Below are positions 51,872 through 64,000 of a stretch of DNA of 64,000 bases, piece after piece. The translations under genes and the position numbers were made by a program. Source of the DNA: a virus; IMG/VR virus record IMGVR_UViG_3300036399_001951, positions 62,001 through 126,000 of that record. One strand, written 5' to 3'. Position 1 is the stretch's first letter; the number at the start of each line of letters is the position of its first letter. The notes under the pieces were generated by a model. It was given only the letters and a program-made list of their open reading frames with translations, had not been told where the DNA came from and did not search any database.

Positions 51872-52087
51872 ATGGCACTAGATGATAACGCAAAACGAGA
51901 ATTTATTGAAGGTATGGTGGAAGATTTTAAACTTCAATTGGAAGGTAATAAGATCGATCCTAAAGTATTAGCAGGTCAGGTCAAGTGGGCCTCCGGTCTC
52001 TGTAATCGCATTATAACATTGATTCAAAATGGAGAAGTTACCTTTAACCTTGACGGAACGGGCACACAAACCAAGAAGGTCAAATAA
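51872..52087 (+). CDS. Small hypothetical protein
   Basis: 71 residues, mainly one helix (NAKREFIEGMVEDFKLQLEG) with a basic C-terminus. Third gene of an early unit that ends at a terminator. Function unknown. Confidence 0.6.
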   Translation: MALDDNAKREFIEGMVEDFKLQLEGNKIDPKVLAGQVKWASGLCNRIITLIQNGEVTFNLDGTGTQTKKVK

Positions 52088-52116
52088 GTTTCCCCCCAAC
52101 TGTTTGACCGAAAAAA

Positions 52117-52138
52117 AGCCAGCGAAAGCTGGCTTTTC
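52117..52138 (+). terminator. Intrinsic terminator
   Basis: AGCCAGC-GAAA-GCTGGCT with a GNRA-type tetraloop and TTTTC tail, between convergent genes. Confidence 0.88.
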
Positions 52139-52158
52139 TATTTTATAGATTTTAAGAT

Positions 52159-52620: not shown

Positions 52621-52630
52621 TTCTTTTTTA

Positions 52631-52652
52631 ATTTTTATTTTATTTATTTTTC
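52631..52652 (-). promoter_or_regulatory. Late-type promoter
   Basis: Minus-strand AAAATAAATAAAATAAAAAT, about 12 bp before the start at 52620. It is the main reason for choosing that start. Confidence 0.55.
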
Positions 52653-52796
52653 CATGTCCCAAATTTTGCTTATATTTATAGATTGCAGTGACCTGAAAAA
52701 TGGACACCCAACTGGAATCTAAAATAACACTCATAACCGCTCCGCTAAAATTCAGAAAAAAGTTTCCAAATAATTTTTTAGATTCCCAAATTCTTC

Positions 52797-52814
52797 TTAT
52801 ATTTACTATATAAC
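52797..52814 (+). promoter_or_regulatory. Early-type promoter
   Basis: TTATATTTACTATATAAC, 16 bp before the ATG at 52831. Confidence 0.65.
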
Positions 52815-52830
52815 TTAAAAACAAAAAGAA

Positions 52831-52974
52831 ATGAATTTTGGAGAAAAGATTTTTTTAGGGGTTTTACAAACAATTTCATGGTGTTTAGGAGCCACAGTAA
52901 TGATTGCGTTAAGTTACGCATTTTATCAAATTGCAACGGGTAATATACACGGAACGGCATCATTTGAATTTTAG
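52831..52974 (+). CDS. Small single-pass membrane protein
   Basis: 47 residues: MNFGEKIFLGVLQTISWCLG, then ATVMIALSYAFYQIATG and a polar end. It follows an early-type promoter and precedes a terminator, so it is a complete monocistronic unit. Function unknown. Confidence 0.6.
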   Translation: MNFGEKIFLGVLQTISWCLGATVMIALSYAFYQIATGNIHGTASFEF

Positions 52975-53005
52975 GTTTTAGTTTATATTTTATTTAAAAT
53001 TTAGA

Positions 53006-53033
53006 AAGGGGCTCAAAAGGCCCCTTATTTTTT
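53006..53033 (+). terminator. Intrinsic terminator
   Basis: AAGGGGC / GCCCCTT stem with a TCAAAAG loop and a T-rich tail. Confidence 0.82.
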
Positions 53034-53085
53034 TAATCCTATTTTTAATAATAGTTTAGGATATCTAGTTAGGACTCCCACTCCC

Positions 53086-53134
53086 GGAGCGAGACTGTAT
53101 CCAAAGGATTCACATAGTGAGAGGCCCGGCTCCG
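53086..53134. repeat. Variant boxed element
   Basis: CGGAGCG at 53085-53091 faces CGGCTCCG at 53127-53134; box starts are 42 bp apart instead of 25. Same place in the gap: after a terminator and before a promoter. Confidence 0.5.
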
Positions 53135-53173
53135 ATAATTATTATTTACGAAAGGTACCCAATTGAAAAAAAA

Positions 53174-53191
53174 GTATTATATTTATATAAG
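53174..53191 (+). promoter_or_regulatory. Early-type promoter
   Basis: GTATTATATTTATATAAG, 19 bp before the ATG at 53210. Confidence 0.6.
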
Positions 53192-53209
53192 AATTTAAAA
53201 CATATAAAG

Positions 53210-53398
53210 ATGAAGAAAAGAATTTTAGATGGATTAGATGCGGGATTATTTATCGGAATGATAGTGTTCGTATTTTCCGGTATCATAATGTATTTTGGTA
53301 ATCCGATTGGAGATTACTTATTACCTAGAACCGCGATTGTAGTTGTGTTGATAAGTATTATCCGGGAAGGGTTAACCCTAAAGTCCAGCCGAACTTAG
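53210..53398 (+). CDS. Small two-helix membrane protein
   Basis: 62 residues from the ATG at 53210, which has the promoter at the usual distance. An upstream GTG frame at 53117 would run through the boxed element and promoter. Two hydrophobic helices: LDAGLFIGMIVFVFSGIIMYF and PRTAIVVVLISIIREGL. Function unknown. Confidence 0.6.
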   Translation: MKKRILDGLDAGLFIGMIVFVFSGIIMYFGNPIGDYLLPRTAIVVVLISIIREGLTLKSSRT

Positions 53399-53425
53399 CG
53401 GAACTTAACAGATTTTAACAATCAG

Positions 53426-53450
53426 AGCCAGATCTTAGTCTGGCTTTTTA
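53426..53450 (+). terminator. Intrinsic terminator
   Basis: AGCCAGA / TCTGGCT stem and T-run. Confidence 0.85.
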
Positions 53451-53476
53451 GGTATATTAAAATAAATCAAAATAAA

Positions 53477-53659
53477 ATGAACATGAAAAAAGCGTATTTA
53501 TTAATGGTTCTTTTAGCATTTGCTGGAATGACCTCATGCGGAGAAGCAAAATCTGATTCTGACACAACTGGCGAAGCTACTATTGAAGCAACTGGGGAGT
53601 GTACCTCAGCTGCGGACTCTCTAGAAGTGGCTCCAACTGAAGAAGCTACCGCAGAATAA
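53477..53659 (+). CDS. Small phage lipoprotein
   Basis: 60 residues. The signal peptide (KKAYLLMVLLAFAGMTSC) ends in a lipobox with Cys at about residue 21. The mature part is about 40 residues of Gly, Ala, Thr, Ser and Glu, strongly acidic and disordered. ATG at 53483 is an alternative start. Surface lipoproteins of phages often block re-infection by masking receptors; that is a guess here. Flanked by terminators on both sides. Confidence 0.7.
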   Translation: MNMKKAYLLMVLLAFAGMTSCGEAKSDSDTTGEATIEATGECTSAADSLEVAPTEEATAE

Positions 53660-53680
53660 GATTTTTCTGCCTCCCAAAAG

Positions 53681-53705
53681 GGCCCTCAATAGAGGGCTTT
53701 TTTTT
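53681..53705 (+). terminator. Intrinsic terminator
   Basis: GCCCTC-AATA-GAGGGC followed by eight T. Confidence 0.9.
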
Positions 53706-53758
53706 GGTCTGGGCCCGGGGCGATGGAGGTCCGTAAGAAACCGCTCCGTAGTAGGCCC

Positions 53759-53789
53759 GGAGCGAGGCAAGCCTCTAGCAAGTGGTTCC
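53759..53789. repeat. 31-bp boxed element
   Basis: GGAGCG at 53759 and GGTTCC at 53784, starts 25 bp apart. Read on the other strand it is nearly the same sequence as the element at 55959-55989 (core CTTGCTAGAGGCTTGCCTCG). Confidence 0.75.
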
Positions 53790-53842
53790 AGGCCTTGCTA
53801 TATTATTATCTAAAAGTTAGTATTATATCTAAAAACAAACCT

Positions 53843-54079
53843 ATGAGCAAATTAACCCGCCCCTTGCTATTGGAATTATATACAGATTGGACTAAACGTT
53901 GGGGCTTGAGCCGCAATAGCGAAGAGATACGGTTCGGACAGTGGGTTTGGATCCATTGGAATACTCAGTTAAGGGAACTAAAGGAGCGGTTCAAAGATTC
54001 CTCAAGCTTGCTAGATGGATTTTATGCTGAATCCCCAAAGACCGCATATGACCAGATTTACCGATTATTGGAATACTGA
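53843..54079 (+). CDS. Hypothetical protein
   Basis: 78 residues from the ATG at 53843. The open frame extends upstream to 53723 but would cross the boxed element and the likely promoter (AGTATTATATCT). The protein is Trp-rich and basic (LYTDWTKRWGLSRNSEE, GQWVWIHWNTQL). No family recognised. Confidence 0.58.
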   Translation: MSKLTRPLLLELYTDWTKRWGLSRNSEEIRFGQWVWIHWNTQLRELKERFKDSSSLLDGFYAESPKTAYDQIYRLLEY

Positions 54080-54158
54080 GCGATGGGATCTTGATCTTCC
54101 GGCTCTTAAAGAATGTTGAAAAAAAGTGATAAAAAGTTTTTCGGATTCCAAAATTCTT

Positions 54159-54175
54159 ATTATATTTATATAAGA
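54159..54175 (+). promoter_or_regulatory. Early-type promoter
   Basis: ATTATATTTATATAAG, 17 bp before the ATG at 54192. Confidence 0.6.
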
Positions 54176-54191
54176 ATTTAAAACAACAGAA

Positions 54192-54398
54192 ATGAAAAAG
54201 AAACTTGTAAATGGAATTGACCTTAAGACCTTAATAAATCATCATAGACCGTTGCACGATATGCGAGATGATGTTTTATTACCAATGATGTGGACCTCAG
54301 TACGAATGATGGAGGACCCTACAGTTCCAACTGCATTTAAACATCACGCCGTGGAAATGTATCAGGACGCGGAGCGAGAATTAGCGATACGTAACTAA
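54192..54398 (+). CDS. Small hypothetical protein
   Basis: 68 residues, helical, with two His pairs (NHHRPLHD and FKHHAVEMYQ). No family recognised. First of an early unit of two or three genes. Confidence 0.58.
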   Translation: MKKKLVNGIDLKTLINHHRPLHDMRDDVLLPMMWTSVRMMEDPTVPTAFKHHAVEMYQDAERELAIRN

Positions 54399-54410
54399 AT
54401 AAATTTAAAT

Positions 54411-54611
54411 ATGAATAATAATGAATTAATTCCTGATGAAGGAAGAGTTTGGAAAACCACTAGTGTAGCTATACAGAGCCGATGGTGGACCAAGGAATCA
54501 AGCGCATGGGATCGTGGAGGTAGCTTTAATATGGCATTATATCTCAGATTCTGTGAAGCACAAATGAGTAAGGACCATGAAGAGCAAGTTGAGAAAACAA
54601 ATCGAAAGTGA
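54411..54611 (+). CDS. Small hypothetical protein
   Basis: 66 residues with SRWWTKESSAWDRGG near the middle. No recognised family. It overlaps the next small ORF in another frame. Confidence 0.55.
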   Translation: MNNNELIPDEGRVWKTTSVAIQSRWWTKESSAWDRGGSFNMALYLRFCEAQMSKDHEEQVEKTNRK

Positions 54612-54744
54612 CATGAGGGAAGACCGTAAAGCGGCTGGCTATTTTGACGGCCGCTTTCGGACCCAAGTGCAACCTAATAAGCGCAAAAAGGAGGAACTGA
54701 AGCGGACTCGCGGAGCGAAAAAAGACTGGGAAAACGAAACTTAG
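54577..54744 (+). CDS. Small basic ORF overlapping the previous gene
   Basis: 55 residues with KSKLRKQIESDMRED, AAGYFDGRF and a Lys/Arg-rich end. It starts 35 bases before the preceding stop. The frame runs through a GGAGCG box (54712), which here codes for Gly-Ala. No other gene fits this 130-bp stretch, but the support is only the open frame. Confidence 0.42.
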   Translation: MKSKLRKQIESDMREDRKAAGYFDGRFRTQVQPNKRKKEELKRTRGAKKDWENET

Positions 54745-54758
54745 GGCAGGTCTTGAAG

Positions 54759-54780
54759 TATATTAGAAATAAATAATAAA
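54759..54780 (+). promoter_or_regulatory. Late-type promoter inside the early region
   Basis: TAGAAATAAATAATAAAGAA, 18 bp before the ATG at 54798. It is late-type although its neighbours carry early-type promoters. Confidence 0.5.
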
Positions 54781-54797
54781 GAAAAAACACTACTAAA

Positions 54798-55124
54798 ATG
54801 GAGACACTAGAACCTATATTTAATCCGGGATTAATTGACTTTATTAACTCCGTAGATGGTGACCTGGGACGGGACCCAGATAGCTTAGAGCTTTTTCAAT
54901 GGATTGTTGAAGACCACTATGATGCGATCATGGAGGATATGTTAGATTATTTTCAGGACCGACCTGACATGCAAGCTATGCAAGCAGAGACCGCTCTTCT
55001 AGAATTAGGAGCGATGTTGAAATACTTTGAAGAGAAGGAGGAATATGAGAAATGTTCTAAATTGGTAAGTGTCCAAAAGGAAATGAAGACCAGTTTTATA
55101 AAGGCTGGCCTTGTAAACCCATGA
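54798..55124 (+). CDS. Hypothetical protein with C-terminal EYEKC motif
   Basis: 108 acidic residues. The end (YFEEKEEYEKCSKL) matches the module at the end of the protein at 3301-3609. Two Asp-rich helices form the rest. The late-type promoter is shared with the structural half of the window, which suggests a related role. Function unknown. Confidence 0.62.
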   Translation: METLEPIFNPGLIDFINSVDGDLGRDPDSLELFQWIVEDHYDAIMEDMLDYFQDRPDMQAMQAETALLELGAMLKYFEEKEEYEKCSKLVSVQKEMKTSFIKAGLVNP

Positions 55125-55149
55125 TTCTCAAGATTTATAGGATATAAAA

Positions 55150-55172
55150 GACCCGGTTTGCCGGGTTTTTTT
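55150..55172 (+). terminator. Intrinsic terminator
   Basis: ACCCGG-TTTG-CCGGGT with a T-run. Confidence 0.88.
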
Positions 55173-55370
55173 ATGACCTTTTGCCCGCCATCTTTGACAA
55201 GAAGAAGCCGCTTCTCGCTCGGGATCCTATTTGATCTGGACATCTCTTGGATTCAGTTAATCCGATCTCGCTCCCGAGCCAAGTGAGATCCAGAATCCAG
55301 AAGGCTGAGCAAATCCAGCTTCGCTCCGATAATAATTATCCCAAACATAGTATCTAATTGAAGAAAAAGT

Positions 55371-55386
55371 ATTATATTTATATAAG
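55371..55386 (+). promoter_or_regulatory. Early-type promoter
   Basis: ATTATATTTATATAAG, 17 bp before the ATG at 55404. Confidence 0.6.
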
Positions 55387-55403
55387 AACTTAAAACAATA
55401 AAG

Positions 55404-55622
55404 ATGAAAAACAAAAAAGAATGGGATGGCTTTTGCCATCGATGCTCACAGGCCTCAATAGGCTACACTATGAGCTGGTTTAATCAGGAATTGATATGTC
55501 CGGATTGCGATAAGAAGGAACATCAACATCCCAAGATTGAAGAAGCTAAAGGAGCGGATTGGGAAGCTTGCAAGCAAGGTAACTTTAACTTTTCAGGAAT
55601 CGGTAAACCTCACGACCTATGA
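55404..55622 (+). CDS. Small zinc-ribbon protein
   Basis: 72 residues with two Cys pairs, CHRC (about residues 11-14) and CPDC (about 32-35), flanking a short beta segment SMSWFNQELI-like. Then comes HPKIEEAKGADWEACKQGNF and GIGKPHDL. Small phage proteins with this ribbon plus a G-N-x-N-F-x-GIG end are familiar, but no function is known. The stop overlaps the next ATG (ATGA). Confidence 0.68.
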   Translation: MKNKKEWDGFCHRCSQASIGYTMSWFNQELICPDCDKKEHQHPKIEEAKGADWEACKQGNFNFSGIGKPHDL

Positions 55623-55891
55623 TACGCCCAAGATCAGAAATGTCCCCGCAAATCGAGATTGATTTGAACGGACCTCAAGGAAATGCATTTTGCCTATTAG
55701 GTATGGTGCCTAACTTGTGTAGAAATTATGGAGTAGAAGTAGAAGGCCTGGACGGGATGCGGGATCTAGGATTCGTTACCGCAAAAAACAGTGCAGAATA
55801 CATACAGGACCAGATGAAAAGCGGAGATTATGAGAATCTCTTATCTGTATTCGATTCCTACTTCGGGGAATGGGTAATCCTATATAGATAG
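55619..55891 (+). CDS. Conserved-type small phage protein
   Basis: 90 residues. IDLNGPQGNAFCLLGMV near the start and QMKSGDYENLLSVFDSYFG near the end form a pattern familiar from short phage proteins (DGP-x-GNAF, then SGDY-NLL). No function is assigned to it as far as I know. Coupled to the zinc-ribbon gene. Confidence 0.65.
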   Translation: MIRPRSEMSPQIEIDLNGPQGNAFCLLGMVPNLCRNYGVEVEGLDGMRDLGFVTAKNSAEYIQDQMKSGDYENLLSVFDSYFGEWVILYR

Positions 55892-55921
55892 GATATTAAC
55901 TCCGTAGTTGATTGATTTGGA

Positions 55922-55946
55922 GGGGAACTTGTTTCCCCTTTTTCTT
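55922..55946 (+). terminator. Intrinsic terminator preceded by CTCCGTAGT
   Basis: GGGGAAC / GTTTCCCC-type hairpin and T-run; CTCCGTAGT lies just upstream at 55900-55908. Confidence 0.8.
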
Positions 55947-55958
55947 TTTCCCAAGCTT

Positions 55959-55989
55959 GGAGCCGCTTGCTAGAGGCTTGCCTCGCTCC
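55959..55989. repeat. 31-bp boxed element
   Basis: GGAGCC at 55959 and CGCTCC at 55984, 25 bp apart; the interior includes GAGGCTTGCCTC. Confidence 0.75.
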
Positions 55990-56042
55990 GCAAAAATGTT
56001 TAAAATAAATTTTCAAAATTGTATTTTATATTTAAAAAATGA

Positions 56043-56060
56043 TTATATTTATATTATAAC
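56043..56060 (+). promoter_or_regulatory. Early-type promoter
   Basis: TTATATTTATATTATAAC, 15 bp before the ATG at 56076. Confidence 0.6.
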
Positions 56061-56075
56061 TTAAAAACAAATAAT

Positions 56076-56414
56076 ATGAAAAGAGAAATTGAATTAGTAT
56101 TTAGCTATGATGCTATGGAAGAAACTTCTAATTTTTTTGAATTTCTTCAAGAAGTTATTGAAGAATTCAGAGTGGAAATAATTGGATTTTGGCCAATGAG
56201 CGCATCTGGATGTTGGCCCGAAATAACATTTAGAGGTGAAGATGATGATCTCTATAGATTATGCTTAAAATATCATGGTGATGATGAAGAAGTAGCTAGA
56301 GATTATTATGATGAATATTCAATAGAGAGTTCATCAAATGAAATTAATATTCTTAAAGATGATCGATGGCCATCAAAGAATAAATGGATTGATAAAGATG
56401 GCAACTTCATTTAA
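56076..56414 (+). CDS. Early untagged paralogue of the tagged protein at 52159
   Basis: 112 acidic residues. The body FLQEVIEEFRVEIIGFWPMS to PEITFRGEDDDLYRL and ARDYYDEYS aligns by eye with residues about 40-115 of the tagged late protein. It starts directly at the domain and lacks the tag. No known fold; a small alpha/beta domain is likely. Confidence 0.68.
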   Translation: MKREIELVFSYDAMEETSNFFEFLQEVIEEFRVEIIGFWPMSASGCWPEITFRGEDDDLYRLCLKYHGDDEEVARDYYDEYSIESSSNEINILKDDRWPSKNKWIDKDGNFI

Positions 56415-56439
56415 AAATTAAAATTTAAAATTAAAGAAA

Positions 56440-56469
56440 TGAGCAATGAAAGTTGCTCATTTTTTTTTG
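56440..56469 (+). terminator. Intrinsic terminator
   Basis: GAGCAA / TTGCTC hairpin followed by nine T. Confidence 0.85.
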
Positions 56470-56479
56470 ATGTTTTGCT

Positions 56480-56510
56480 AGAGCCGCTTGCTAGGGGATC
56501 TCCTCGCTCC
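56480..56510. repeat. 31-bp boxed element
   Basis: AGAGCC at 56480 and CGCTCC at 56505, 25 bp apart; interior begins GCTTGCTAG like the element at 55959. Confidence 0.7.
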
Positions 56511-56551
56511 GAGATTAATTTATCCGCATTGGTAACGGATTCCCAAAAAAG

Positions 56552-56570
56552 TATTATATTTATATATAAC
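56552..56570 (+). promoter_or_regulatory. Early-type promoter
   Basis: TATTATATTTATATATAAC, 15 bp before the ATG at 56586. Confidence 0.62.
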
Positions 56571-56585
56571 TTAAAACAAAAGATC

Positions 56586-56741
56586 ATGTACAGTTTAGAT
56601 TGTAATTATTACGAGAAGCAATTTTCCTCCATTGACCAACTCATTGATGATGTGATTCAGAGCGGGATGGATCCGAACTATGAGATTACCTACAATGGCA
56701 AAGGCATTGGGGACCGGGCCATTGACCTAATCCAATTTTAG
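56586..56741 (+). CDS. Small hypothetical protein
   Basis: 51 residues from the ATG at 56586, which the promoter supports; the frame open upstream crosses the terminator and boxed element. Sequence MYSLDCNYYEKQFSSIDQL to YNGKGIGDRAIDLI; no family. Confidence 0.58.
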   Translation: MYSLDCNYYEKQFSSIDQLIDDVIQSGMDPNYEITYNGKGIGDRAIDLIQF

Positions 56742-56763
56742 AAATTAAAAATTTAAGTGAGGA

Positions 56764-56787
56764 AACCGGCTAACTGCCGGTTTTTTA
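56764..56787 (+). terminator. Intrinsic terminator
   Basis: ACCGGC-TAACT-GCCGGT with six T. Confidence 0.88.
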
Positions 56788-56841
56788 GGGTCCGAACTTT
56801 CGCAAACCTTGACCTTGGCAGAGAGTGGGCTCTCCCGCTCG

Positions 56842-56893
56842 GGAGCGAGTTAAGATCCAGAAATCAGTTGGATTCGGGATCGGCATTCGCTCC
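56842..56893. repeat. Variant boxed element
   Basis: CGCTCGGGAGCG palindrome at 56836-56847 and CGCTCC at 56888; first and last boxes are 46 bp apart. Confidence 0.5.
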
Positions 56894-56944
56894 GAAAAAT
56901 GTTTGCAATTTTTTTACCCAAAATGATACCAATTGGGAAATATG

Positions 56945-56961
56945 TATTATATTTATATAAG
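56945..56961 (+). promoter_or_regulatory. Early-type promoter
   Basis: ATTATATTTATATAAGA, 28 bp before the sigma-factor ATG at 56990. Confidence 0.6.
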
Positions 56962-56989
56962 AATTTAAACCAATTAAAAAACAAAGATT

Positions 56990-57667
56990 ATGAAAAATGT
57001 AGTTTTAAGCAGAACGATTACGAACAAAGATTCTAATTGTGTAGACCGTTACTTCCAGGACATCCAGGAATACGTTCCCCTAAGCGCTGATGAGGAAATC
57101 ATCATAGCACGTAAAGTTAAAGAGGGTGACCCGAGCGCACTGGAGCGATTAGTGAAGCACAATACTAGATTCGTTATTTCGGTAGCAAAGAAGTATCAGG
57201 GACGGGGCACACCCTTAAGTGACCTCATCAGCGAAGGTAATGTGGGTCTAATTGAAGCAGCAAAAAGATTTGACCCAGAACGAGGACATCGCTTTATCAC
57301 TTATGCAGTATGGTGGATTAAACAATCTATCTTAGCATCTATCGATAATGGTATTAAAAACTCTCACACTTCAATTGATGCTACAATTGGTGGCGGAGAG
57401 GATGAAGACTGGACAATTGCAAATCAATTGCGTTCAGATTCTCCCAGCACTGACCACATCGTTGAGCAAGATTCAATTAAAACTCAAGCCAATCGAATGC
57501 TATCACAATTAGCAGAACGTGAAAGAGAGATTATCAAATCACTATTTGGAATTGAGTGTAGAGCAATTGGAATTGATGAAGCTGGTAAGAAGTTTGGATT
57601 AACTCAACAGCGAATTGGACAAATCAGAGATAATGCTTTAAAGACCTTACAATCTAAGGTTAAGTAG
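56990..57667 (+). CDS. RpoD-like sigma factor lacking a clear region 3
   Basis: 225 residues. Region 1.2/2 is CVDRYFQDIQEYVPLSADEE, then LERLVKHNTRFVISVAKKYQ, LIEAAKRFDPERGHRF and ITYAVWWIKQSILASI (to about 125). The usual region 3 (VR-x-P-x-x-x and following helices) is replaced by a short acidic linker with GGGEDEDW. Region 4 is LAEREREIIKSLFGIE and a helix-turn-helix KKFGLTQQRIGQIRDNALK. Expressed from an early-type promoter, it is a candidate early or middle sigma factor. Confidence 0.92.
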   Translation: MKNVVLSRTITNKDSNCVDRYFQDIQEYVPLSADEEIIIARKVKEGDPSALERLVKHNTRFVISVAKKYQGRGTPLSDLISEGNVGLIEAAKRFDPERGHRFITYAVWWIKQSILASIDNGIKNSHTSIDATIGGGEDEDWTIANQLRSDSPSTDHIVEQDSIKTQANRMLSQLAEREREIIKSLFGIECRAIGIDEAGKKFGLTQQRIGQIRDNALKTLQSKVK

Positions 57668-57688
57668 AACCAAGCAACTCCGTAGTAA

Positions 57689-57715
57689 GGCCCTCCTTGT
57701 GGGGGCCTTTTTTAT
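57689..57715 (+). terminator. Intrinsic terminator with CTCCGTAGT upstream
   Basis: GGCCCTCC-TTGT-GGGGGCC and six T; CTCCGTAGT lies at 57678-57686. Confidence 0.85.
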
Positions 57716-57726
57716 TTGCCAGGTCT

Positions 57727-57805
57727 GGAGCGGTCCTCACCCGGACCTCATGCAGGTCATGGGGTAGGAGATCCGCTCCGTAGTGGCCGTGCCCGCCGAG
57801 GAGCG
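57727..57805. repeat. Variant boxed element cluster
   Basis: GGAGCG at 57727, CGCTCC at 57774 (followed by CTCCGTAGT) and GGAGCG at 57800 with GC-rich sequence between. Spacing differs from the 25-bp type. Confidence 0.5.
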
Positions 57806-57940
57806 GCGTCGTCTTGGATGCTCTCGAAGCGGGGTCGCCCTGGAAAATGGGCAAAAAAATAATTCTAAGATTTTTATATTTAATAAATTATTATTACTAT
57901 AGAGCTCGAGAAATTCGGGCTCTTTTTTGCGCCCAAGCTT

Positions 57941-57971
57941 GGAGATGTACCTTCGTGAATCTTCCCGCTCT
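57941..57971. repeat. 31-bp boxed element
   Basis: GGAGAT at 57941 and CGCTCT at 57966, 25 bp apart; both boxes are one or two bases off consensus. A further GGAGCG follows at 57978. Confidence 0.5.
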
Positions 57972-58024
57972 GGAAAAGGAGCGAGAAAAGATCCCTTGGA
58001 TTTTCAGGTATCTAGAATTATATG

Positions 58025-58046
58025 TATATTTACTTATACTTAATAA
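58025..58046 (+). promoter_or_regulatory. Early-type promoter
   Basis: TATATTTACTTATACTTAATAA, 10 bp before the ATG at 58057; a slightly altered copy. Confidence 0.5.
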
Positions 58047-58056
58047 CTTAAACAAC

Positions 58057-58281
58057 ATGGAAACAACAGTGTTTATTAAAATCTCAGGTCGCAAGGAGCC
58101 AGGGTATCCGACAACATCGCATCAGGTAACATTCGATGGGGACCTTACCGTATTTGAAAACCTAGTAGATGGGATTATAGATCAATTAGGTTATCGTAAA
58201 GCAGATGTATACATCGATAATCCTGAGGAATTTAACGAGGACGAGCAGGAGACCCTAGAAACTATGGGATTCATATTATGA
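58057..58281 (+). CDS. Small acidic hypothetical protein
   Basis: 74 residues from the ATG at 58057, supported by the promoter; the longer open frame crosses a boxed element. TTVFIKISGRKEPGYPTTSH and a C-terminal acidic helix. The stop overlaps the next start (ATGA). No family. Confidence 0.6.
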   Translation: METTVFIKISGRKEPGYPTTSHQVTFDGDLTVFENLVDGIIDQLGYRKADVYIDNPEEFNEDEQETLETMGFIL

Positions 58282-58508
58282 ATTGGCTACCGGTATCTGA
58301 TCGACATCAACAGGGACAAACCTCAATTGGAAATGTCTGGATACGATTTACCCGGTCAGGAGCGATAGATGCATGGTACACCTGCTTTGGAGAGACACGG
58401 AAATGGTGCGCACAGGAAGGGGATACTGTGGAATTAGTAAGAGAGTTAATAGAAGAAGAATATCAACGGGTTCTGTTCTCCCGTCAGTTAGCTGAGAAAA
58501 ACAGATAA
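58278..58508 (+). CDS. Small hypothetical protein
   Basis: 76 residues, coupled to the previous gene. A beta-rich start (IGNVWIRFTRSGAIDAWYTC) precedes a helix (LVRELIEEEYQRVLF). No family recognised. Confidence 0.6.
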   Translation: MNWLPVSDRHQQGQTSIGNVWIRFTRSGAIDAWYTCFGETRKWCAQEGDTVELVRELIEEEYQRVLFSRQLAEKNR

Positions 58509-58530
58509 TCTTTGTTTTAAGTTCTGATCA

Positions 58531-58557
58531 AGCCGATTACTCCGTAGTCGGCTTTTT
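58531..58557 (+). terminator. Terminator with ACTCCGTAGT loop
   Basis: GCCGATT-ACTCCGTAGT-CGGC hairpin and T-run. Confidence 0.85.
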
Positions 58558-58572
58558 CTTTGCCCAGTTCCC

Positions 58573-58603
58573 GGAGCCACTTAACAGGAGCTCGCTTCGC
58601 TCC
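58573..58603. repeat. 31-bp boxed element
   Basis: GGAGCC at 58573 and CGCTCC at 58598, 25 bp apart, with GAGCTC inside. Confidence 0.72.
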
Positions 58604-58654
58604 GAGAAAAGCTCAATAATAAATCAGCAGGATTTTTAGTTGTGGTAAATTTTG

Positions 58655-58672
58655 ATTATATTTACCTATAAC
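58655..58672 (+). promoter_or_regulatory. Early-type promoter
   Basis: ATTATATTTACCTATAAC, 15 bp before the ATG at 58688. Confidence 0.6.
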
Positions 58673-58687
58673 TTAAAAGTAGAAATC

Positions 58688-58921
58688 ATGAATGTATTTG
58701 AATTTGTATTAAGCGGCAATGAAATGACAATTGCAGTAGTAGTAGGAGCAGCCAGCCGAGAGCGAGCCCTTGTTCTTCTAAAGGAGAACTATGAAAACTT
58801 TGAAGAAGAATATGATTACGATAATGAAGATGCGATAACATCATATCGAGATTCAATTATCAGTAACACTACATGTACTGCTGAATTTGTACGTGAAATC
58901 TTTTCAACCGAAGAACTATGA
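58688..58921 (+). CDS. Small hypothetical protein
   Basis: 77 residues from the ATG at 58688 (promoter-supported). NVFEFVLSGNEMTIAVVVGA and an acidic middle. The stop overlaps the next start (ATGA), coupling it to the ART-like gene. No family recognised. Confidence 0.6.
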   Translation: MNVFEFVLSGNEMTIAVVVGAASRERALVLLKENYENFEEEYDYDNEDAITSYRDSIISNTTCTAEFVREIFSTEEL

Positions 58922-59238
58922 GAGCCTATCATGCAACCCAGGCTAGTAATATACCTAGCATCCTAGAGGAAGGATTAAAATCTATGTGGGAAGGAGTATA
59001 TCTAACTGATTCAGAAGAGAGCGCATGCCGATGGATGGGATTCAGATTGGCTGCAGTAGGGGAACCAGTAATGGCCGTGATAGAGGTCGAGGTTAATGAA
59101 TACGATACAGTTGAAGGTATGGACCATTCCCCTCTAATGGAACAGATATTCGGAGTGGGAAAGAGTATCCTACATCCAAAGAGTATAAAACCTGAAAAAA
59201 TTATAAACGTTAATTACTATCGATTAAATCAAAAGTAA
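58918..59238 (+). CDS. Small ART-fold-like protein
   Basis: 106 residues. It opens RAYHATQASNIPSILEEGLK, then GVYLTDSEESACRW and VIEVEVNEYDTVEG. The order H-A-T near the start, S-I-x-x-x-GL, VYLT and a later E-x-x-D fits the NAD-binding ADP-ribosyltransferase fold (DarT/RNA 2'-phosphotransferase style). It is shorter than typical enzymes, so activity is unproven. Phage ARTs such as T4 Alt and Mod modify host RNA polymerase; an early target of that kind is speculative. Confidence 0.55.
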   Translation: MRAYHATQASNIPSILEEGLKSMWEGVYLTDSEESACRWMGFRLAAVGEPVMAVIEVEVNEYDTVEGMDHSPLMEQIFGVGKSILHPKSIKPEKIINVNYYRLNQK

Positions 59239-59260
59239 AGGTAATCTAATCTTCTCTAGA

Positions 59261-59288
59261 AGCCGGCCCAATAAAGGTCGGCTTTTTT
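59261..59288 (+). terminator. Intrinsic terminator
   Basis: AAGCCGGCC / GGTCGGCTT hairpin followed by T-run. Confidence 0.85.
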
Positions 59289-59322
59289 AGGGTCCCAACT
59301 AAGAGGACCTCCGCTTCGGCAG

Positions 59323-59394
59323 GGAGCGGGCATTCCCGCTCCCGAGCGGATCTGGATACTTGACCACCGGGATTCCGGTATCCAAGCTCGCTCC
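59323..59394. repeat. Variant boxed element cluster
   Basis: GGAGCG at 59323, CGCTCC at 59337 and CGCTCC at 59389. The inner GGGAGCGGG-CATT-CCCGCTCCC makes a strong hairpin. Confidence 0.55.
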
Positions 59395-59446
59395 GAAAAG
59401 ATTGATAAATTTTTTCAAAATAATTTTCAAGATTGAGGTATTCTTT

Positions 59447-59464
59447 GTATATTTACTATATAAC
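59447..59464 (+). promoter_or_regulatory. Early-type promoter
   Basis: GTATATTTACTATATAAC, preceded by TTCTTT; 16 bp before the ATG at 59481. Confidence 0.65.
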
Positions 59465-59480
59465 TTAAAACAAAAGAGAA

Positions 59481-59729
59481 ATGGTATTACAACCAATTAA
59501 CCCGTCAGAATTGAGAGCGCGATTAAATCGTGGAACTGTTCAGTTTGCGTACAAGAAATTAGATGGCACTCTACGCACTGCCATTGGAACCACTTCACTG
59601 GAGAATGTGCCAGTTGACCATCAACCTAAAGGTGGAGAGAGTAGCCCTAAAGTTGTGGTTTACTTTGACCTTCAAAAAGGTGAATGGAGAAGTGTAAGTA
59701 TTAATCGTGAAATCTTTATTGCAGAATAA
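59481..59729 (+). CDS. Small hypothetical protein (possible DUF2693-like)
   Basis: 82 residues. LRARLNRGTVQFAYKKLDGT, then RTAIGTTSLENVP and VVYFDLQKGEWRSV. This order resembles a small Bacteroidota/phage family (DUF2693: R-x-L-x-x-G-x-V-x-F-x-Y-x-K-x-DG-x-x-R). Function unknown. Followed at 1 bp by the next gene. Confidence 0.62.
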   Translation: MVLQPINPSELRARLNRGTVQFAYKKLDGTLRTAIGTTSLENVPVDHQPKGGESSPKVVVYFDLQKGEWRSVSINREIFIAE

Positions 59730-59730
59730 G

Positions 59731-59961
59731 ATGGGAACGAAAGAATTAAACATGGTGGAAGGGCCGGATGGCCTAACCACCGTATCCGGAAAATGCGTAT
59801 TTACAGGGGAAGAGTATTCCTGTCAAGTACCAACAGATGGAATTAAGATGTGGCTCAACGGGGAGCGGATTCAGCGTGCTCTACCGGGCGTGAGCCTAGA
59901 CGATAGGGAATTCCTAATAAGTGGAATTAGTCCTAACGGCTGGAAAAAGACCTTTGGTTAG
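59731..59961 (+). CDS. Small hypothetical protein
   Basis: 76 residues from the ATG at 59731. VEGPDGLTTVSGKCVFTGEE and GERIQRALPGVSLDDREFLI, then SGISPNGWKKTFG. The end (LS-x-x-x-REFLISGI-x-P) is a pattern seen in small phage proteins. No function known. Confidence 0.6.
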   Translation: MGTKELNMVEGPDGLTTVSGKCVFTGEEYSCQVPTDGIKMWLNGERIQRALPGVSLDDREFLISGISPNGWKKTFG

Positions 59962-59983
59962 GTTGTTTTAAGTTAGATAAGAT

Positions 59984-60017
59984 AAGGGTCGACTCCGTAG
60001 TCGGCCCTTTCTTTTTT
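59984..60017 (+). terminator. Terminator with ACTCCGTAGT loop
   Basis: AAGGGTCG-ACTCCGTAGT-CGGCCCTT hairpin and T-run. Confidence 0.87.
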
Positions 60018-60026
60018 CCCTAGCCC

Positions 60027-60057
60027 GGAGCGGATTACCAAGGGCCGGCCTCGCTCT
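60027..60057. repeat. 31-bp boxed element
   Basis: GGAGCG at 60027 and CGCTCT at 60052, 25 bp apart, with GGGCCGGCC inside. Confidence 0.7.
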
Positions 60058-60110
60058 GAGAAATGTGCAAAAATATATCTCATAGGATTTTCAAGTTAAT
60101 GATAGAATGC

Positions 60111-60127
60111 CTATATTTACTTATAAC
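60111..60127 (+). promoter_or_regulatory. Early-type promoter
   Basis: CTATATTTACTTATAAC, 17 bp before the ATG at 60145. Confidence 0.62.
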
Positions 60128-60144
60128 TTAAAACTTAAAACAAA

Positions 60145-60399
60145 ATGAAAAAAGAAAAATTAATTGAGAAACTAAATGAGTTTGAAAACGGATTCGAGCG
60201 GGATCCAGAAGTAATTGAACTTGTTTATAAGATAAAAGAGAAGTTTGATTCTCATTTTAATAAAACATTCTCGAGCAAAGAGATTGAATCTGATGAGTTT
60301 GATGAGATGAGCGAAGAGTATTATTATGCCCTGAAAGAGAATGATCCTGATGATGCATCGATTTTTCAGGTAATGTGGTTTGAAAATTGGTTAAAATAA
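60145..60399 (+). CDS. Small acidic hypothetical protein
   Basis: 84 residues, helical and highly charged (KKEKLIEKLNEFENGFERD, ESDEFDEMSEEYYYALKEN). No family recognised. Followed at 5 bp by the next ORF. Confidence 0.6.
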   Translation: MKKEKLIEKLNEFENGFERDPEVIELVYKIKEKFDSHFNKTFSSKEIESDEFDEMSEEYYYALKENDPDDASIFQVMWFENWLK

Positions 60400-60404
60400 T
60401 AACT

Positions 60405-60614
60405 ATGGAAGCAAACTCAAAACAAGAATGGTGGGATCTAGTAAGAGCGGATCTCGCTAAGTGGAATAGAGAGAACCACCCAGAAGATCGCATGGGTATT
60501 CAAGACTGGATCGGCGAAGTTGGACCTAAGATTCATGGATGGATCGCGTTCAGAGACGAGTATGGAGATTGGGATGCCTCATTGAGCGGATTCCCAGACG
60601 ATGAAGATTATTAA
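60405..60614 (+). CDS. Small hypothetical protein
   Basis: 69 residues from the ATG at 60405. Trp-rich and acidic (NSKQEWWDLVRADLAKWN, DEYGDWDASLSGFPDDEDY). No family recognised. Confidence 0.58.
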   Translation: MEANSKQEWWDLVRADLAKWNRENHPEDRMGIQDWIGEVGPKIHGWIAFRDEYGDWDASLSGFPDDEDY

Positions 60615-60687
60615 AGATTGTGGCACGTGTCTCTTGTAAAACTTTCAAAAAAGTTTCCAAAAAATTTTCAAGTATCAAAAATTCTTT

Positions 60688-60704
60688 GTATATTTACTTA
60701 TAAC
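60688..60704 (+). promoter_or_regulatory. Early-type promoter
   Basis: GTATATTTACTTATAAC preceded by TTCTTT, 17 bp before the ATG at 60722. Confidence 0.65.
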
Positions 60705-60721
60705 TTAAAAACAAAAAAGAA

Positions 60722-61120
60722 ATGAAAGCAGGTAAGTATTATGTTGGTGACCTATGTTATGTACTAGGTGATCGTTGGGACGAAGTTTGTGATCTTATTA
60801 TTAAGGATCATGTATGCTTAGATGGTGTGTTTGAATTAAAGGACGGAACCCAGTTTGCAATATATGGAACAGCTTATGGAGATGGATTCTATAGTGACCA
60901 ATATGCAAATGGATATCCAGTGGATTCAGGTTCAATCGGCTGTGTGTTAGTGGACTCCATAACTTCAGGTGAATTAGATGAATCCTTAGGAAATGTTATA
61001 GATTTCGATGATGATTTTACTACAAGTTCAGATAGTGGAATAATCTATATCGGAGAAATTGAAATAGATACTGAAGGGAGCGAAGGAATAGATGATGAAT
61101 CAATCAATGATATTTGGTAA
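60722..61120 (+). CDS. Conserved-type phage protein (GDLCYVL family)
   Basis: 132 residues. AGKYYVGDLCYVLGDRWDEV, then TQFAIYGTAYGDGFYSD and YPVDSGSIGCVLVDSI form a pattern I recognise from uncharacterised phage and bacterial proteins. The Gly/Asp-rich beta core resembles a sensor or binding domain. The C-terminus is acidic. Alone under an early-type promoter, followed by an ACTCCGTAGT terminator. Confidence 0.7.
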   Translation: MKAGKYYVGDLCYVLGDRWDEVCDLIIKDHVCLDGVFELKDGTQFAIYGTAYGDGFYSDQYANGYPVDSGSIGCVLVDSITSGELDESLGNVIDFDDDFTTSSDSGIIYIGEIEIDTEGSEGIDDESINDIW

Positions 61121-61144
61121 GAAGTTGTTTTAAGTTAGGTAAAG

Positions 61145-61174
61145 AAAGGTCAACTCCGTAGTTGGCCTTTTCTT
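61145..61174 (+). terminator. Terminator with ACTCCGTAGT loop
   Basis: AAAGGTCA-ACTCCGTAGT-TGGCCTTT hairpin and T-run. Confidence 0.87.
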
Positions 61175-61187
61175 TTGCGGTATCCCC

Positions 61188-61218
61188 GGAGCGGGTAGCA
61201 TCCCTCCCGCCTCGCTCC
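61188..61218. repeat. 31-bp boxed element
   Basis: GGAGCG at 61188 and CGCTCC at 61213, 25 bp apart. Confidence 0.78.
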
Positions 61219-61271
61219 GAGAAACGTACAAAAATATATTATCTAAAATTTTCAGGATTAAGGAATTCTTC

Positions 61272-61288
61272 TTATATTTACTTATAAC
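61272..61288 (+). promoter_or_regulatory. Early-type promoter
   Basis: TTATATTTACTTATAAC, 16 bp before the ATG at 61305. Confidence 0.65.
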
Positions 61289-61304
61289 TTAAAAACAAAA
61301 AGAA

Positions 61305-61670
61305 ATGAAAAATGTAACAGTATTAGCAATTGGAGTAGTTCAACCTGAAAACGGAAAAACTTGTTATGATTGGAATATGTATGATTCTGTGCCAGGAGTG
61401 ATCTCCTTGACCTCAAGTGGATTCTTAATGTATCATGCTAATGAAGATGATTTTACACCGGGCGATCAATTACAATTAATCGCTAATGATTCAAATAGAA
61501 AATTAAAAACGGCAACAATCGTTGAATCATGTAGCGCAAACCGAGAGGATGTCCTAGCAATGTTATTACGTAACCAATATGATTATTATCCAGCTAGAGC
61601 ATTTAAGAAAAAGAGATTCTCTCGTAAATTGAGTACATCATATTCAGTAAAAGGAATTTATATTAGTTAG
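61305..61670 (+). CDS. Hypothetical protein
   Basis: 121 residues with a beta-rich first half (NVTVLAIGVVQPENGKTCYD), a predicted small barrel segment (DDFTPGDQLQLIANDSNRKL) and a basic end (FKKKRFSRKLSTS). No family recognised. Monocistronic early gene. Confidence 0.62.
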   Translation: MKNVTVLAIGVVQPENGKTCYDWNMYDSVPGVISLTSSGFLMYHANEDDFTPGDQLQLIANDSNRKLKTATIVESCSANREDVLAMLLRNQYDYYPARAFKKKRFSRKLSTSYSVKGIYIS

Positions 61671-61696
61671 TTGTTTGTTTTGTTTAAGTTCTGATT

Positions 61697-61721
61697 AAGC
61701 CGGCACCAGCCGGCTTTTTCT
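61697..61721 (+). terminator. Intrinsic terminator
   Basis: AAGCCGGC-ACCA-GCCGGCTT with T-run. Confidence 0.88.
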
Positions 61722-61743
61722 TTTTAGGTGGCCATGCCCGCCC

Positions 61744-61785
61744 GGAGCCAGCTCTCCTCGGGCGCTCTCGAGGCGGGGCCGCTCC
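61744..61785. repeat. Variant boxed element
   Basis: GGAGCC at 61744 and CGCTCC at 61780, 36 bp apart. The interior has CTCGGGCGCTCTCGAGGCGG; a similar CTCTCGA-GCGGGG string stands at 57820-57835. Confidence 0.5.
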
Positions 61786-61838
61786 GGAAAATGTACAAAA
61801 ATATATTCTCTAAAATTTTCAAGATTAAAGTATTTTGC

Positions 61839-61854
61839 CTATATTTACTTATAA
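61839..61854 (+). promoter_or_regulatory. Early-type promoter
   Basis: TATATTTACTTATAAC preceded by TTTTGCC, 16 bp before the ATG at 61871. Confidence 0.65.
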
Positions 61855-61870
61855 CTTAAAACAAAACAAT

Positions 61871-62125
61871 ATGATTGATGTAATTTATGTGGCAGTTCTA
61901 GACTTTAATCTATGCAGCGTTAGCCTTTATGAGATTGAAAAGCAAGAAGCATTGGATATTGCAGATGACCTAGATATTGAGTTTGAGATTGACACCTTAG
62001 ATGAGATAGTATGTGAATATATGCATTCAAACCGCGGTCACCGAGCAAGCGAATGTCAGTATATGTTTTCAACTGAACCAATTCCTCTCCATATCCCATA
62101 TCAAATAGAATTAACTGAAGAATAA
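61871..62125 (+). CDS. Small acidic hypothetical protein
   Basis: 84 residues from the ATG at 61871. VIYVAVLDFNLCSVSLYEI, then DDLDIEFEIDTLDEIVCEYM and NRGHRASECQYMFSTEPI. It is similar in style to the protein at 58688, with an acidic helix followed by a Cys-containing end. No function known. Confidence 0.6.
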   Translation: MIDVIYVAVLDFNLCSVSLYEIEKQEALDIADDLDIEFEIDTLDEIVCEYMHSNRGHRASECQYMFSTEPIPLHIPYQIELTEE

Positions 62126-62147
62126 GTTTATTGATTATTACCGCAGG

Positions 62148-62170
62148 GGCCAGGAGACTGGCCTTTTTTA
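62148..62170 (+). terminator. Intrinsic terminator
   Basis: GGCCAG-GAGA-CTGGCC with T-run. Confidence 0.88.
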
Positions 62171-62182
62171 GGCATTCCTCTC

Positions 62183-62213
62183 GGAGCGGGTAGCCAGAAG
62201 AGAAACCCGCTCC
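62183..62213. repeat. 31-bp boxed element
   Basis: GGAGCGGGT at 62183 pairs exactly with ACCCGCTCC ending at 62213: a 9-bp stem with a 13-nt loop. Box starts are 25 bp apart. The cleanest copy in the window. Confidence 0.82.
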
Positions 62214-62266
62214 GAATAATTGACAAAAAAATTTAAAATAAATTTTCAGGATTAAAGTATTTTGCC

Positions 62267-62283
62267 TATATTTACTATATAAC
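62267..62283 (+). promoter_or_regulatory. Early-type promoter
   Basis: CTATATTTACTATATAAC-type box, 15 bp before the ATG at 62299. Confidence 0.65.
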
Positions 62284-62298
62284 TTAAAACAAAACAAG

Positions 62299-62658
62299 AT
62301 GAATATTGATGTTAACTTAATCTTACCTGAAGGTAAGGATTATCAGAGAGCCAAGGAGATGGACTTCTATAAACATGGCATGAGGAACTGGTTCTATGGG
62401 AACGGTGCGCCAATTCAAAGCCTAGCAGAGAAGCAAGCTAAACTTATTAAAGACCCTGTTAAATTAGTGCGCAGAGCCAAGGCAGTTGCAGCAGTGTGGG
62501 GCACTAGAGATTATCATGGGTATGCAAGTGGAGTACCGAAGGAGGAAAACGTTTGGAATCCCTTTGAGAATGCCCTACGTGCAATGGGATTTACTCATGA
62601 ACAGATCAATTCAATTAGCTCGCATAGAGAATCAGATGAAGTATTAAGAAGAGCTTAA
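62299..62658 (+). CDS. Hypothetical protein
   Basis: 119 residues. LILPEGKDYQRAKEMDFYKH, then QSLAEKQAKLIKDPVKLVRR and AVAAVWGTRDYHGYASG. Basic, helical. No family recognised. It is the first gene of a pair with the next ORF, 3 bp apart. Confidence 0.62.
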   Translation: MNIDVNLILPEGKDYQRAKEMDFYKHGMRNWFYGNGAPIQSLAEKQAKLIKDPVKLVRRAKAVAAVWGTRDYHGYASGVPKEENVWNPFENALRAMGFTHEQINSISSHRESDEVLRRA

Positions 62659-62661
62659 GAC

Positions 62662-63138
62662 ATGGAACTTATTCTAAAAATCAAGGACAATCTGCATATC
62701 ATAGGGAATCGGATCTATAGCTACGAAACTGAGGTTGCCTCTATTGGCAAACACATTATCACTGCATACTCCACATACAGCAGAACTACAGGTAAACATG
62801 TAAACTTTATTTCACACCTATTAAACCTGCCAATCGTACACTCTACTCGTAAAAAGGCCGCCTATTCTAAATTGCAATATGGAGCCAGATGTAAGTATGA
62901 TGGCAGCTTATCAAGCAAGGCTAGCATCTCCGTAGTCAATGAACTCAAGTCTGGAGCGAATCTCATGACTGCTTGTGCAAGATGCTGGAACAGTATGGGT
63001 AATCGAGACAGGTCAACAGTAAGAGATTATTATGGATACACTGGCAAGGGAGCGGAGTTCGACGACCTGATTGTAATAGCCGGGCTCGGGATTATCATTA
63101 CAGATGAAGCAATTGATTTATCAAAAATATCAATTTAA
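62662..63138 (+). CDS. Hypothetical protein
   Basis: 158 residues: a beta-rich start (IKDNLHIIGNRIYSYETEVA), then a Ser/Tyr-rich middle and a C-terminal domain with DDLIVIAGLGIIITDEAI. It has Cys in CARCW near residue 107. The internal CTCCGTAGT at 62938 is coding here. No known function. Confidence 0.62.
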   Translation: MELILKIKDNLHIIGNRIYSYETEVASIGKHIITAYSTYSRTTGKHVNFISHLLNLPIVHSTRKKAAYSKLQYGARCKYDGSLSSKASISVVNELKSGANLMTACARCWNSMGNRDRSTVRDYYGYTGKGAEFDDLIVIAGLGIIITDEAIDLSKISI

Positions 63139-63161
63139 ATTTTCAGGTCCCAAAGATTCTC

Positions 63162-63180
63162 TGTATATTTACTATATAAC
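63162..63180 (+). promoter_or_regulatory. Early-type promoter
   Basis: TGTATATTTACTATATAAC preceded by TTCTC, 14 bp before the ATG at 63195. Confidence 0.65.
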
Positions 63181-63194
63181 TTAAAATAAAAGTA

Positions 63195-64000
63195 ATGAAA
63201 GCAAAGCAAATAACTCTTAGTGCATCCTATATCAAATCACTCAGTGTGGAGAATAAGATAAATTTCTTATCGAATGATATTTGCCCTGATGAAATTATTG
63301 AACTCTTATCAAATGATCGTAGCCATAGAGTAAGAGCCGCAATTGCTGCACACACTAATTGTCCAATTGAACTATTAATTAAGTACTCGAATGATGCGCA
63401 CCCAGGGGTATTATGCGGTATTGCGAGTAATCCAAAAATTCCATATGATATCTTAGTTAAATTGTCAGATTCTGAGACAGATATAGTGGTAGTTGGCGTT
63501 GGTGAAAACCCTTCAATTGATTCTAAATTAAAGAATAAAATTCTAGAGCGATTGGCATTTGAATTTAATTGCTACTATAACGCGGTAGAGAGCCTAATCG
63601 CAAGTCCGGAAATAAAATCTTCTCTTATTAATAAATTATCTAAACACTCTAATTGGAATGTAAGGAGAGCGGTTGCAAGGAAGCCTTATCTCTCTAATGA
63701 TGTAGTGAATCGCTTAGCCGGTGACAACGACTGTGATGTACAAGATGCGATTCTGGAAAATGAATCATTAGAGATTACATCGAAAATGTTAAACATTCTT
63801 GTTAAGACGGGAAGTTGGCAGAATCGTCAAATCATTGCATCACGTATGGATTGTCCCCTAGATGTATTAATCTATATTGCAGAAACAGACGATGATACTG
63901 ATGTATTGAATTCTATGTTGAAGAATAGCAAGTGTCCGCTTGAAGTACTGGTGATTGTTGTTAACCGAGCCGATAGAGGAGAATCGTTAGGTACAGCAAG
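63195..64000 (+). CDS. Leucine-rich-repeat-variant/HEAT-like repeat protein (3' truncated)
   Basis: Open from the ATG at 63195 to the window end, so at least 268 residues. It contains repeats of about 25 residues of the type RSHRVRAAIAAHTNCPIELL, then VLCGIASNPKIPYDILVKLS and NVRRAVARKPYLSNDVVNRL. These match the LRV/HEAT-like alpha solenoid pattern (V-x-x-A-[IV]-A-x-N-x-x-x-P-x-x-[VI]-L). Such solenoids bind proteins or nucleic acids. Function here is unknown; the C-terminus lies beyond the window. Confidence 0.75.
   Translation, partial: MKAKQITLSASYIKSLSVENKINFLSNDICPDEIIELLSNDRSHRVRAAIAAHTNCPIELLIKYSNDAHPGVLCGIASNPKIPYDILVKLSDSETDIVVVGVGENPSIDSKLKNKILERLAFEFNCYYNAVESLIASPEIKSSLINKLSKHSNWNVRRAVARKPYLSNDVVNRLAGDNDCDVQDAILENESLEITSKMLNILVKTGSWQNRQIIASRMDCPLDVLIYIAETDDDTDVLNSMLKNSKCPLEVLVIVVNRADRGESLGTA

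Follow-up and report, generated by a model that had tools for sequence, protein, structure and literature searches.

Helically phased, lineage-specific boxes upstream of early promoters in an uncultured phage as candidate docking sites for a regulator

The 64,000-nucleotide window analysed here corresponds to bases 62001–126000 of the 136,739-bp record of an uncultured phage (IMG/VR record IMGVR_UViG_3300036399_001951), and positions are given in window numbering. The phage encodes a T4-type terminase, a ribonucleotide reductase, a chaperonin pair and several sigma factors. From about 50.3 kb to the end of the record it carries a block of small genes, almost all on the plus strand, which is termed the early block on the basis of gene layout. 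Many of these genes have their own promoter, TTTTC..TATATTTACTTATAACTTAAAA, a type that points to a putative host in the Bacteroidota. The same block contains elements with a GGAGCG-like left box and a CGCTCC-like right box; at the majority of early promoters, in the phage and in its relatives, the right box is held at helical-turn distances from the -7 box of the promoter, TATATTTA, and its sequence changes between phage lineages. With a probability of about 0.6, the boxes are attributed to docking sites on double-stranded DNA for a lineage-specific regulator, which is most probably encoded by the phage itself and most probably activates the early promoters.

The initial annotation described a 31-bp intergenic unit with box starts exactly 25 bp apart. 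All nine coordinates given for it are correct, although only the copies at 61188 and 62183 have exact boxes, the other seven deviating by 1 to 3 mismatches in total. A spacing count over the full record reproduced the peak at 25 in the early block and its absence from shuffled sequence. From 50301 to the end of the record, 12 GGAGCG/CGCTCC pairs with at most two mismatches occur at spacing 25 and 7 at the next best spacing, compared with a mean of 0.28 at 25 (maximum 2), and no spacing above 3, in 60 local dinucleotide shuffles. The remainder of the 136.7-kb record holds two pairs of this kind at 25 and, whatever the spacing, none that is exact. Of the 69 exact box words, 57 are located at or beyond 50.6 kb. 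Longer variants at 36, 46 and 47 bp are present as described. Most copies do lie between a terminator and a promoter, the copy at 53759 being followed by no standard TATATTTA box. The elements and an example promoter are as follows.

51310–51340, plus strand: 31-bp element GGAGCG..GGCTCT, two mismatches; -7 box at 51385
53717–53747, plus strand: 31-bp element GGGGCG..CGCTCC, overlooked earlier
53759–53789, plus strand: 31-bp element GGAGCG..GGTTCC, two mismatches; interior is the inverted 55959 interior
55959–55989, plus strand: 31-bp element GGAGCC..CGCTCC; right box at -60 bp from the -7 box at 56044
56480–56510, plus strand: 31-bp element AGAGCC..CGCTCC, two mismatches; right box at -50 bp from the -7 box at 56555
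57941–57971, plus strand: 31-bp element GGAGAT..CGCTCT, three mismatches; right box at -59 bp from the -7 box at 58025
58573–58603, plus strand: 31-bp element GGAGCC..CGCTCC; right box at -59 bp from the -7 box at 58657
60027–60057, plus strand: 31-bp element GGAGCG..CGCTCT; right box at -60 bp from the -7 box at 60112
61188–61218, plus strand: 31-bp element, exact boxes; right box at -60 bp from the -7 box at 61273
62183–62213, plus strand: 31-bp element, exact boxes; right box at -59 bp from the -7 box at 62267
66326, beyond the window: exact 31-bp copy
61744–61785, plus strand: 36-spaced form GGAGCC..CGCTCC; right box at -60 bp from the -7 box at 61840
56842–56893, plus strand: 46-spaced form; right box at -60 bp from the -7 box at 56948, promoter of a sigma-factor gene
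59343–59394, plus strand: 46-spaced form CGAGCG..CGCTCC; right box at -59 bp from the -7 box at 59448
57727–57779, plus strand: 47-spaced form, exact boxes
55275–55327, plus strand: 47-spaced form CGAGCC..CGCTCC; right box at -51 bp from the -7 box at 55373
52738–52743, plus strand: right box with no left partner, at -60 bp from the -7 box at 52798
61273–61294, plus strand: early core promoter and leader TATATTTACTTATAACTTAAAA, one of about 30 copies in the block

All IMG/VR contigs were scanned for the promoter sequence of the phage, and then for each box together with the promoter at any of 31 distances. Among the matches listed by these scans, to which the following counts refer, 112 of 116 promoters of related phages have a box that starts at -40, -50, -60 or -70 from TATATTTA, give or take 1 bp. 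The CGCTC right box (n = 40) is found at -59 to -61 in 30 cases and at -49/-50 in 10; GTCTC, the right box of a second set of relatives (n = 76), is found at -49 to -51 in 53 cases, at -59 to -61 in 15, and at -70 and -40 in two each. The scans, themselves unbiased, gave a flat distribution of distances in unrelated contigs with a single hit. As the promoters might be copies of one ancestor, those of homologous genes were compared. Box offsets differed by 0–2 bp in 61 pairs, 9–11 bp in 49, 19–21 bp in 5 and by other values in 11, counts to which no probability is attached because the pairs are not independent of each other. Gene calls in the relatives are automatic, and several contigs are partial or redundant; the elements of the near-identical strain L004 are identical to those of the phage and hence uninformative.

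The relatives fall into lineages with different box words. Contigs of groups B and C carry the CGCTC right box, like the phage, and group A contigs have GTCTC (GTCTC/GAGAC) in the same place, so that the word switches from GAGC[G/C] to GAGAC. Different boxes were found in 42 pairs of homologous genes, mostly each with the box of its own lineage, and the box differs between phages sharing genes at up to 89% protein identity. One box of the other lineage is present in the window:

60629–60633, plus strand: GTCTC box of the group A lineage, at -60 bp from the -7 box at 60689

The gene behind it (60722–61120) encodes a protein about 80% identical to that of the GTCTC lineage, and the segment 60629–61120 is a promoter cassette and gene imported from the GTCTC lineage into a GAGCG phage. 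The imported gene contains one GAGCG and lacks the GAGAC found in its homologues. The extra sigma factor encoded at 56990–57667 was considered as the specificity factor and rejected, as it fails to track the box: a 57% ortholog is shared with two group B contigs, and the group C records with CGCTC have only weaker sigma matches. Matches to sigma-70 region 2 were seen in five proteins of the phage (two early, three elsewhere) and in one to three proteins of each relative; the genes concerned include 56990–57667 and 38508–39413 and, in relative L058, 5052–5771.

The left box is less constant in position. Scored with 5-mer words, left GAGCG and right CGCTC in the phage and groups B and C are 24, 32–33, 35–36, 43 or 45 bp apart, mostly 24, 35–36 or 45, with a best period of about 10.4–10.6 bp. 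A spacing of 25 is thus the commonest in this genome, but the single peak does not extend to the relatives (24, 32–33, 35–36 and 45), and one special spacing was rejected as a rule. A wider architecture, constant in its right-hand box, includes the 31-bp unit as one of its forms.

When the phage and group B are taken together, boxed promoters tend towards a weaker -35 element: 1 of 31 of them has the extended -35 TTTTCAGGT, compared with 13 of 26 unboxed promoters. The difference is significant in group B, not in the phage alone, and not seen in group A. For the combined set, it would fit a need of boxed promoters for assistance. The stretch that separates box and promoter is rich in A/T and in this respect resembles an UP element.

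Comparison of relatives bore out the expectation of kept boxes and a drifting interior, as near-identical group B phages keep the boxes and swap what lies between them. At one locus, about 99% identical downstream, boxes, terminator and promoter are kept and the interior is replaced; at a second, everything 5' of the right box is replaced, with a crossover near the right box (L062_6972 versus L076_10679). Within the phage, the interiors of 53759 and 55959 are, as reported, nearly the same sequence in opposite orientation. By eye, an interior is likewise inverted at another gene in a close group B relative (L062 5390–5550 versus L076 5370–5420), which we liken to the 53759/55959 pair. Simple duplication, already doubted in the initial annotation, was rejected, as the boxes stay constant while interiors differ and are exchanged.

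The box word also occurs inside genes, where its enrichment was measured against synonymous codon shuffles preserving protein and codon usage. Early genes of the phage contain 39 sense GAGCG (16.9 expected, z 6.3) and 29 sense GAGCC (15.5 expected, z 4.1). These are the words most used by the promoter boxes of the phage; other GAGNN words stay below z 3, and the late genes show no enrichment of the word. The in-gene GAGCG copies fall in all three frames, about 40 sense versus 4 antisense, and the promoter-proximal right boxes are oriented opposite to them. Sense copies, about one or two per kilobase of early genes, include the following.

51423–64000, plus strand: early genes with sense GAGCG, for example at 51769, 53984, 54372, 55009, 55552, 56660, 57143 and 58360
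59863, 60196, 60445, 60584, 61078, 62954, 63050 and 63667, plus strand: further sense GAGCG in early genes

The in-gene word differs from lineage to lineage. In group A genes GAGAC is enriched (180 versus 123.7, z 7.2) and GAGCG depleted (24 versus 39.8). A hand count over eleven homologues with protein identities of 60% or higher gave 8 GAGCG and 3 GAGAC in the phage, and 1 and 9, respectively, in the best group A homologues. No conserved partner motif was found at a fixed distance from the in-gene copies. A Chi-like, replication or restriction signal was rejected, since the word is enriched in the early block only, not in the other 110 kb, and is phased with the promoter.

Helical phasing in several lineages with two different words argues for a protein that sits on double-stranded DNA and touches RNA polymerase, and a word that changes between gene-exchanging lineages points to a phage-encoded one. 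Box position and the apparently weaker -35 favour activation over repression, short of proof. In the proposed mechanism, the right box (CGCTC, which reads GAGCG on the lower strand) would be bound by one protomer. With the box 40, 50, 60 or 70 bp before the -7 box, this protomer would in every case approach the promoter from one side of the helix, and it would help RNA polymerase at weak -35 elements in a class I manner, probably through a flexibly tethered part of the enzyme, for instance the alpha C-terminal domain. The convergent left box, usually 24, 35–36 or 45 bp further upstream, would give cooperative binding, with the element interior serving as a spacer. RNA 5' ends would be expected just downstream of TATATTTAC.

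Several observations weigh against this assignment. Transcription starts are assumed from the position of the -7 box, a word of 5–6 bp is short for one protein, and the early genes, scanned with Pfam and PHROGs, gave sigma factors and unknowns with no clear regulator. The GAGAC partner in group A is enriched 55–100 bp upstream, often before the terminator, with no clear phase. Simple activation does not predict the sense-strand in-gene copies, and their words do not always follow the promoters: group B shows mixed coding enrichment (GAGAC z 4.3, GAGTC z 4.0, GAGCG z 3.2) though its promoters use GAGCG, and the enrichment of GAGTC in group A is likewise outside the prediction of the simple picture. 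One extension, which we put forward only tentatively, is that a single factor acts in two orientations, the reversed, phased sites launching transcription and the sense in-gene sites acting on the elongating polymerase, thereby defining early territory; both kinds of site would share one word, which differs between lineages.

The in-gene copies could alternatively belong to a stoperator-like repressor that binds them and the upstream boxes and shuts early transcription off, the in-gene copies serving as oriented road blocks. They do follow the direction of transcription, are confined to early genes and change word with lineage, and the stoperators of mycobacteriophage L5 similarly have an asymmetric, oriented and lineage-specific motif (PMC9283540, PMC6550527). 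We nevertheless regard repression as unlikely: a repressor has no evident need for a phased seat 40–70 bp ahead of the -7 box, the -35 tends to be weaker where a box is present, the upstream boxes are oriented opposite to the in-gene copies, and the gene content, with a T4-type terminase, suggests a lytic phage. Docking of the host polymerase alpha subunit or a host regulator, in place of a phage protein, would be in keeping with the UP-like DNA between box and promoter and with the lack of a clear regulator in the Pfam and PHROGs scans. This origin appears distinctly improbable, as the box, in contrast to known UP elements, has an asymmetric, G/C-rich word specific to the lineage, changes between phages with closely similar genes and is retained in the imported cassette.

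Two further explanations dispense with a docked protein. The elements might chiefly be recombination joints of mobile promoter–terminator cassettes with no regulatory role of their own, and the crossover near the right box between close relatives, the recurrence of interiors at other loci and inverted, and the imported cassette all fit this. Yet homology joints require neither helical phase nor a lineage-wide word switch, and what is conserved is the box word, not long identity, which makes joints alone a very unlikely explanation. The initial annotation had left open protein recognition or a processed RNA hairpin; phasing, word change and interior exchange support the former. A hairpin of GGAGCG and CGCTCC in read-through transcripts, processed or protected there, draws on the reverse complementarity of the boxes, on copies such as 62183 that lengthen the stem, and on interiors that fold slightly better than shuffles (mean z about -1). 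No compensatory stem change was found, however, and outside the boxes the arms of 34 elements are no more complementary than arms paired at random. An RNA hairpin has no reason to lock its offset to the next promoter in helical turns, the element lengths step by about 10.5 bp, and the group A right box has no nearby left arm. The hairpin was rejected on covariation and phasing, and we consider it hardly tenable.

Mobile regulatory cassettes consisting of an early promoter and a stem-loop were reportedly described in T4-type phages by Arbiol in 2010, a study cited in PMC4177764. The present elements share the overall layout, with a terminator and an early promoter between small early genes, and shuffle between related phages. 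To our knowledge, no phased upstream protein box is known in T4-type cassettes. Class I activators and relocatable alpha-subunit sites show helical phasing relative to the promoter (PMC2859248, PMC4390567). The arrangement found here resembles class I promoters with CRP at -61.5 and further upstream (PMC2859248, PMC4390567): the site precedes the -35 and is set back from the core promoter by whole helical turns, the contact with polymerase would likely be flexible, and the -35 may be weak. In contrast to those promoters, a single phage here uses a short, G/C-rich word that differs between lineages at many of its early promoters, with a convergent second site and further copies inside genes, and the regulator is putative. 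The operators and stoperators of L5 are comparable as many asymmetric sites oriented with transcription, with a motif that changes between lineages (PMC9283540, PMC6550527). They are, however, repressing 13-bp sites, mainly in promoters and short intergenic gaps. Here the word has 5–6 bp, the coding copies occur in three frames, only the in-gene copies are oriented with transcription, and the copies at promoters lie upstream in inverted orientation and in helical phase. As site length and placement differ, the in-gene copies are not classified as stoperators; Pfam and PHROGs revealed no regulator among the early proteins that could match the cognate two-domain immunity repressor of L5-type phages. 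Mu Mor and phi29 p4 are phage-encoded regulators that use short inverted repeats beside A/T-rich DNA and the host polymerase (PMC4390567, PMC3100819), but serve one or few promoters at a fixed position, in contrast to the large early regulon and several helical phases seen here.

Other features of the early block include two further regions with box words.

52162–52620, minus strand: the only clear gene of the block on this strand, with two GAGCG on its own sense strand and one CGCTC
50340 to about 51340–51400, minus strand: kilobase largely devoid of genes, with seven CGCTCC words, reading GGAGCG on this strand, and three GGAGCG words

The gene-poor kilobase (about 50340–51400) also contains two direct repeats, one of 28 bp (50885, 51131) and one of 24 bp (50352, 50419). 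Rfam gave no match near the gathering score across 49500–64000, this kilobase included, and megablast of 42000–62500 against annotated phages gave no match. A small early protein (58918–59238), conserved across lineages, matches the Tpt1/KptA RNA 2'-phosphotransferase fold weakly and below threshold (E 0.04). The octamer CTCCGTAG occurs 16 times on the plus strand and never on the minus strand, in the early block only (53744, 54848, 55900, 57678, 57776, 58540, 59993, 61154, 62928 and seven further positions to the end of the record). It sits in terminator loops and coding sequence (synonymous-shuffle z about 10–15), its flanks show weak complementarity only, and, unlike the GAGCG word, it is common to all lineages (120 sense and 10 antisense copies in the relatives).

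If the proposed role of the boxes is correct, uncultured T4-type phages would run at least a dozen early promoters in each genome as a regulon with one swappable specificity, and its helical phasing would be readable from sequence alone. The natural promoter series at -40, -50, -60 and -70, together with the natural word swap between relatives, would make both activator–polymerase geometry and the evolution of regulator specificity testable. Moreover, the sense in-gene copies raise the question of whether one factor may act in both initiation and elongation.

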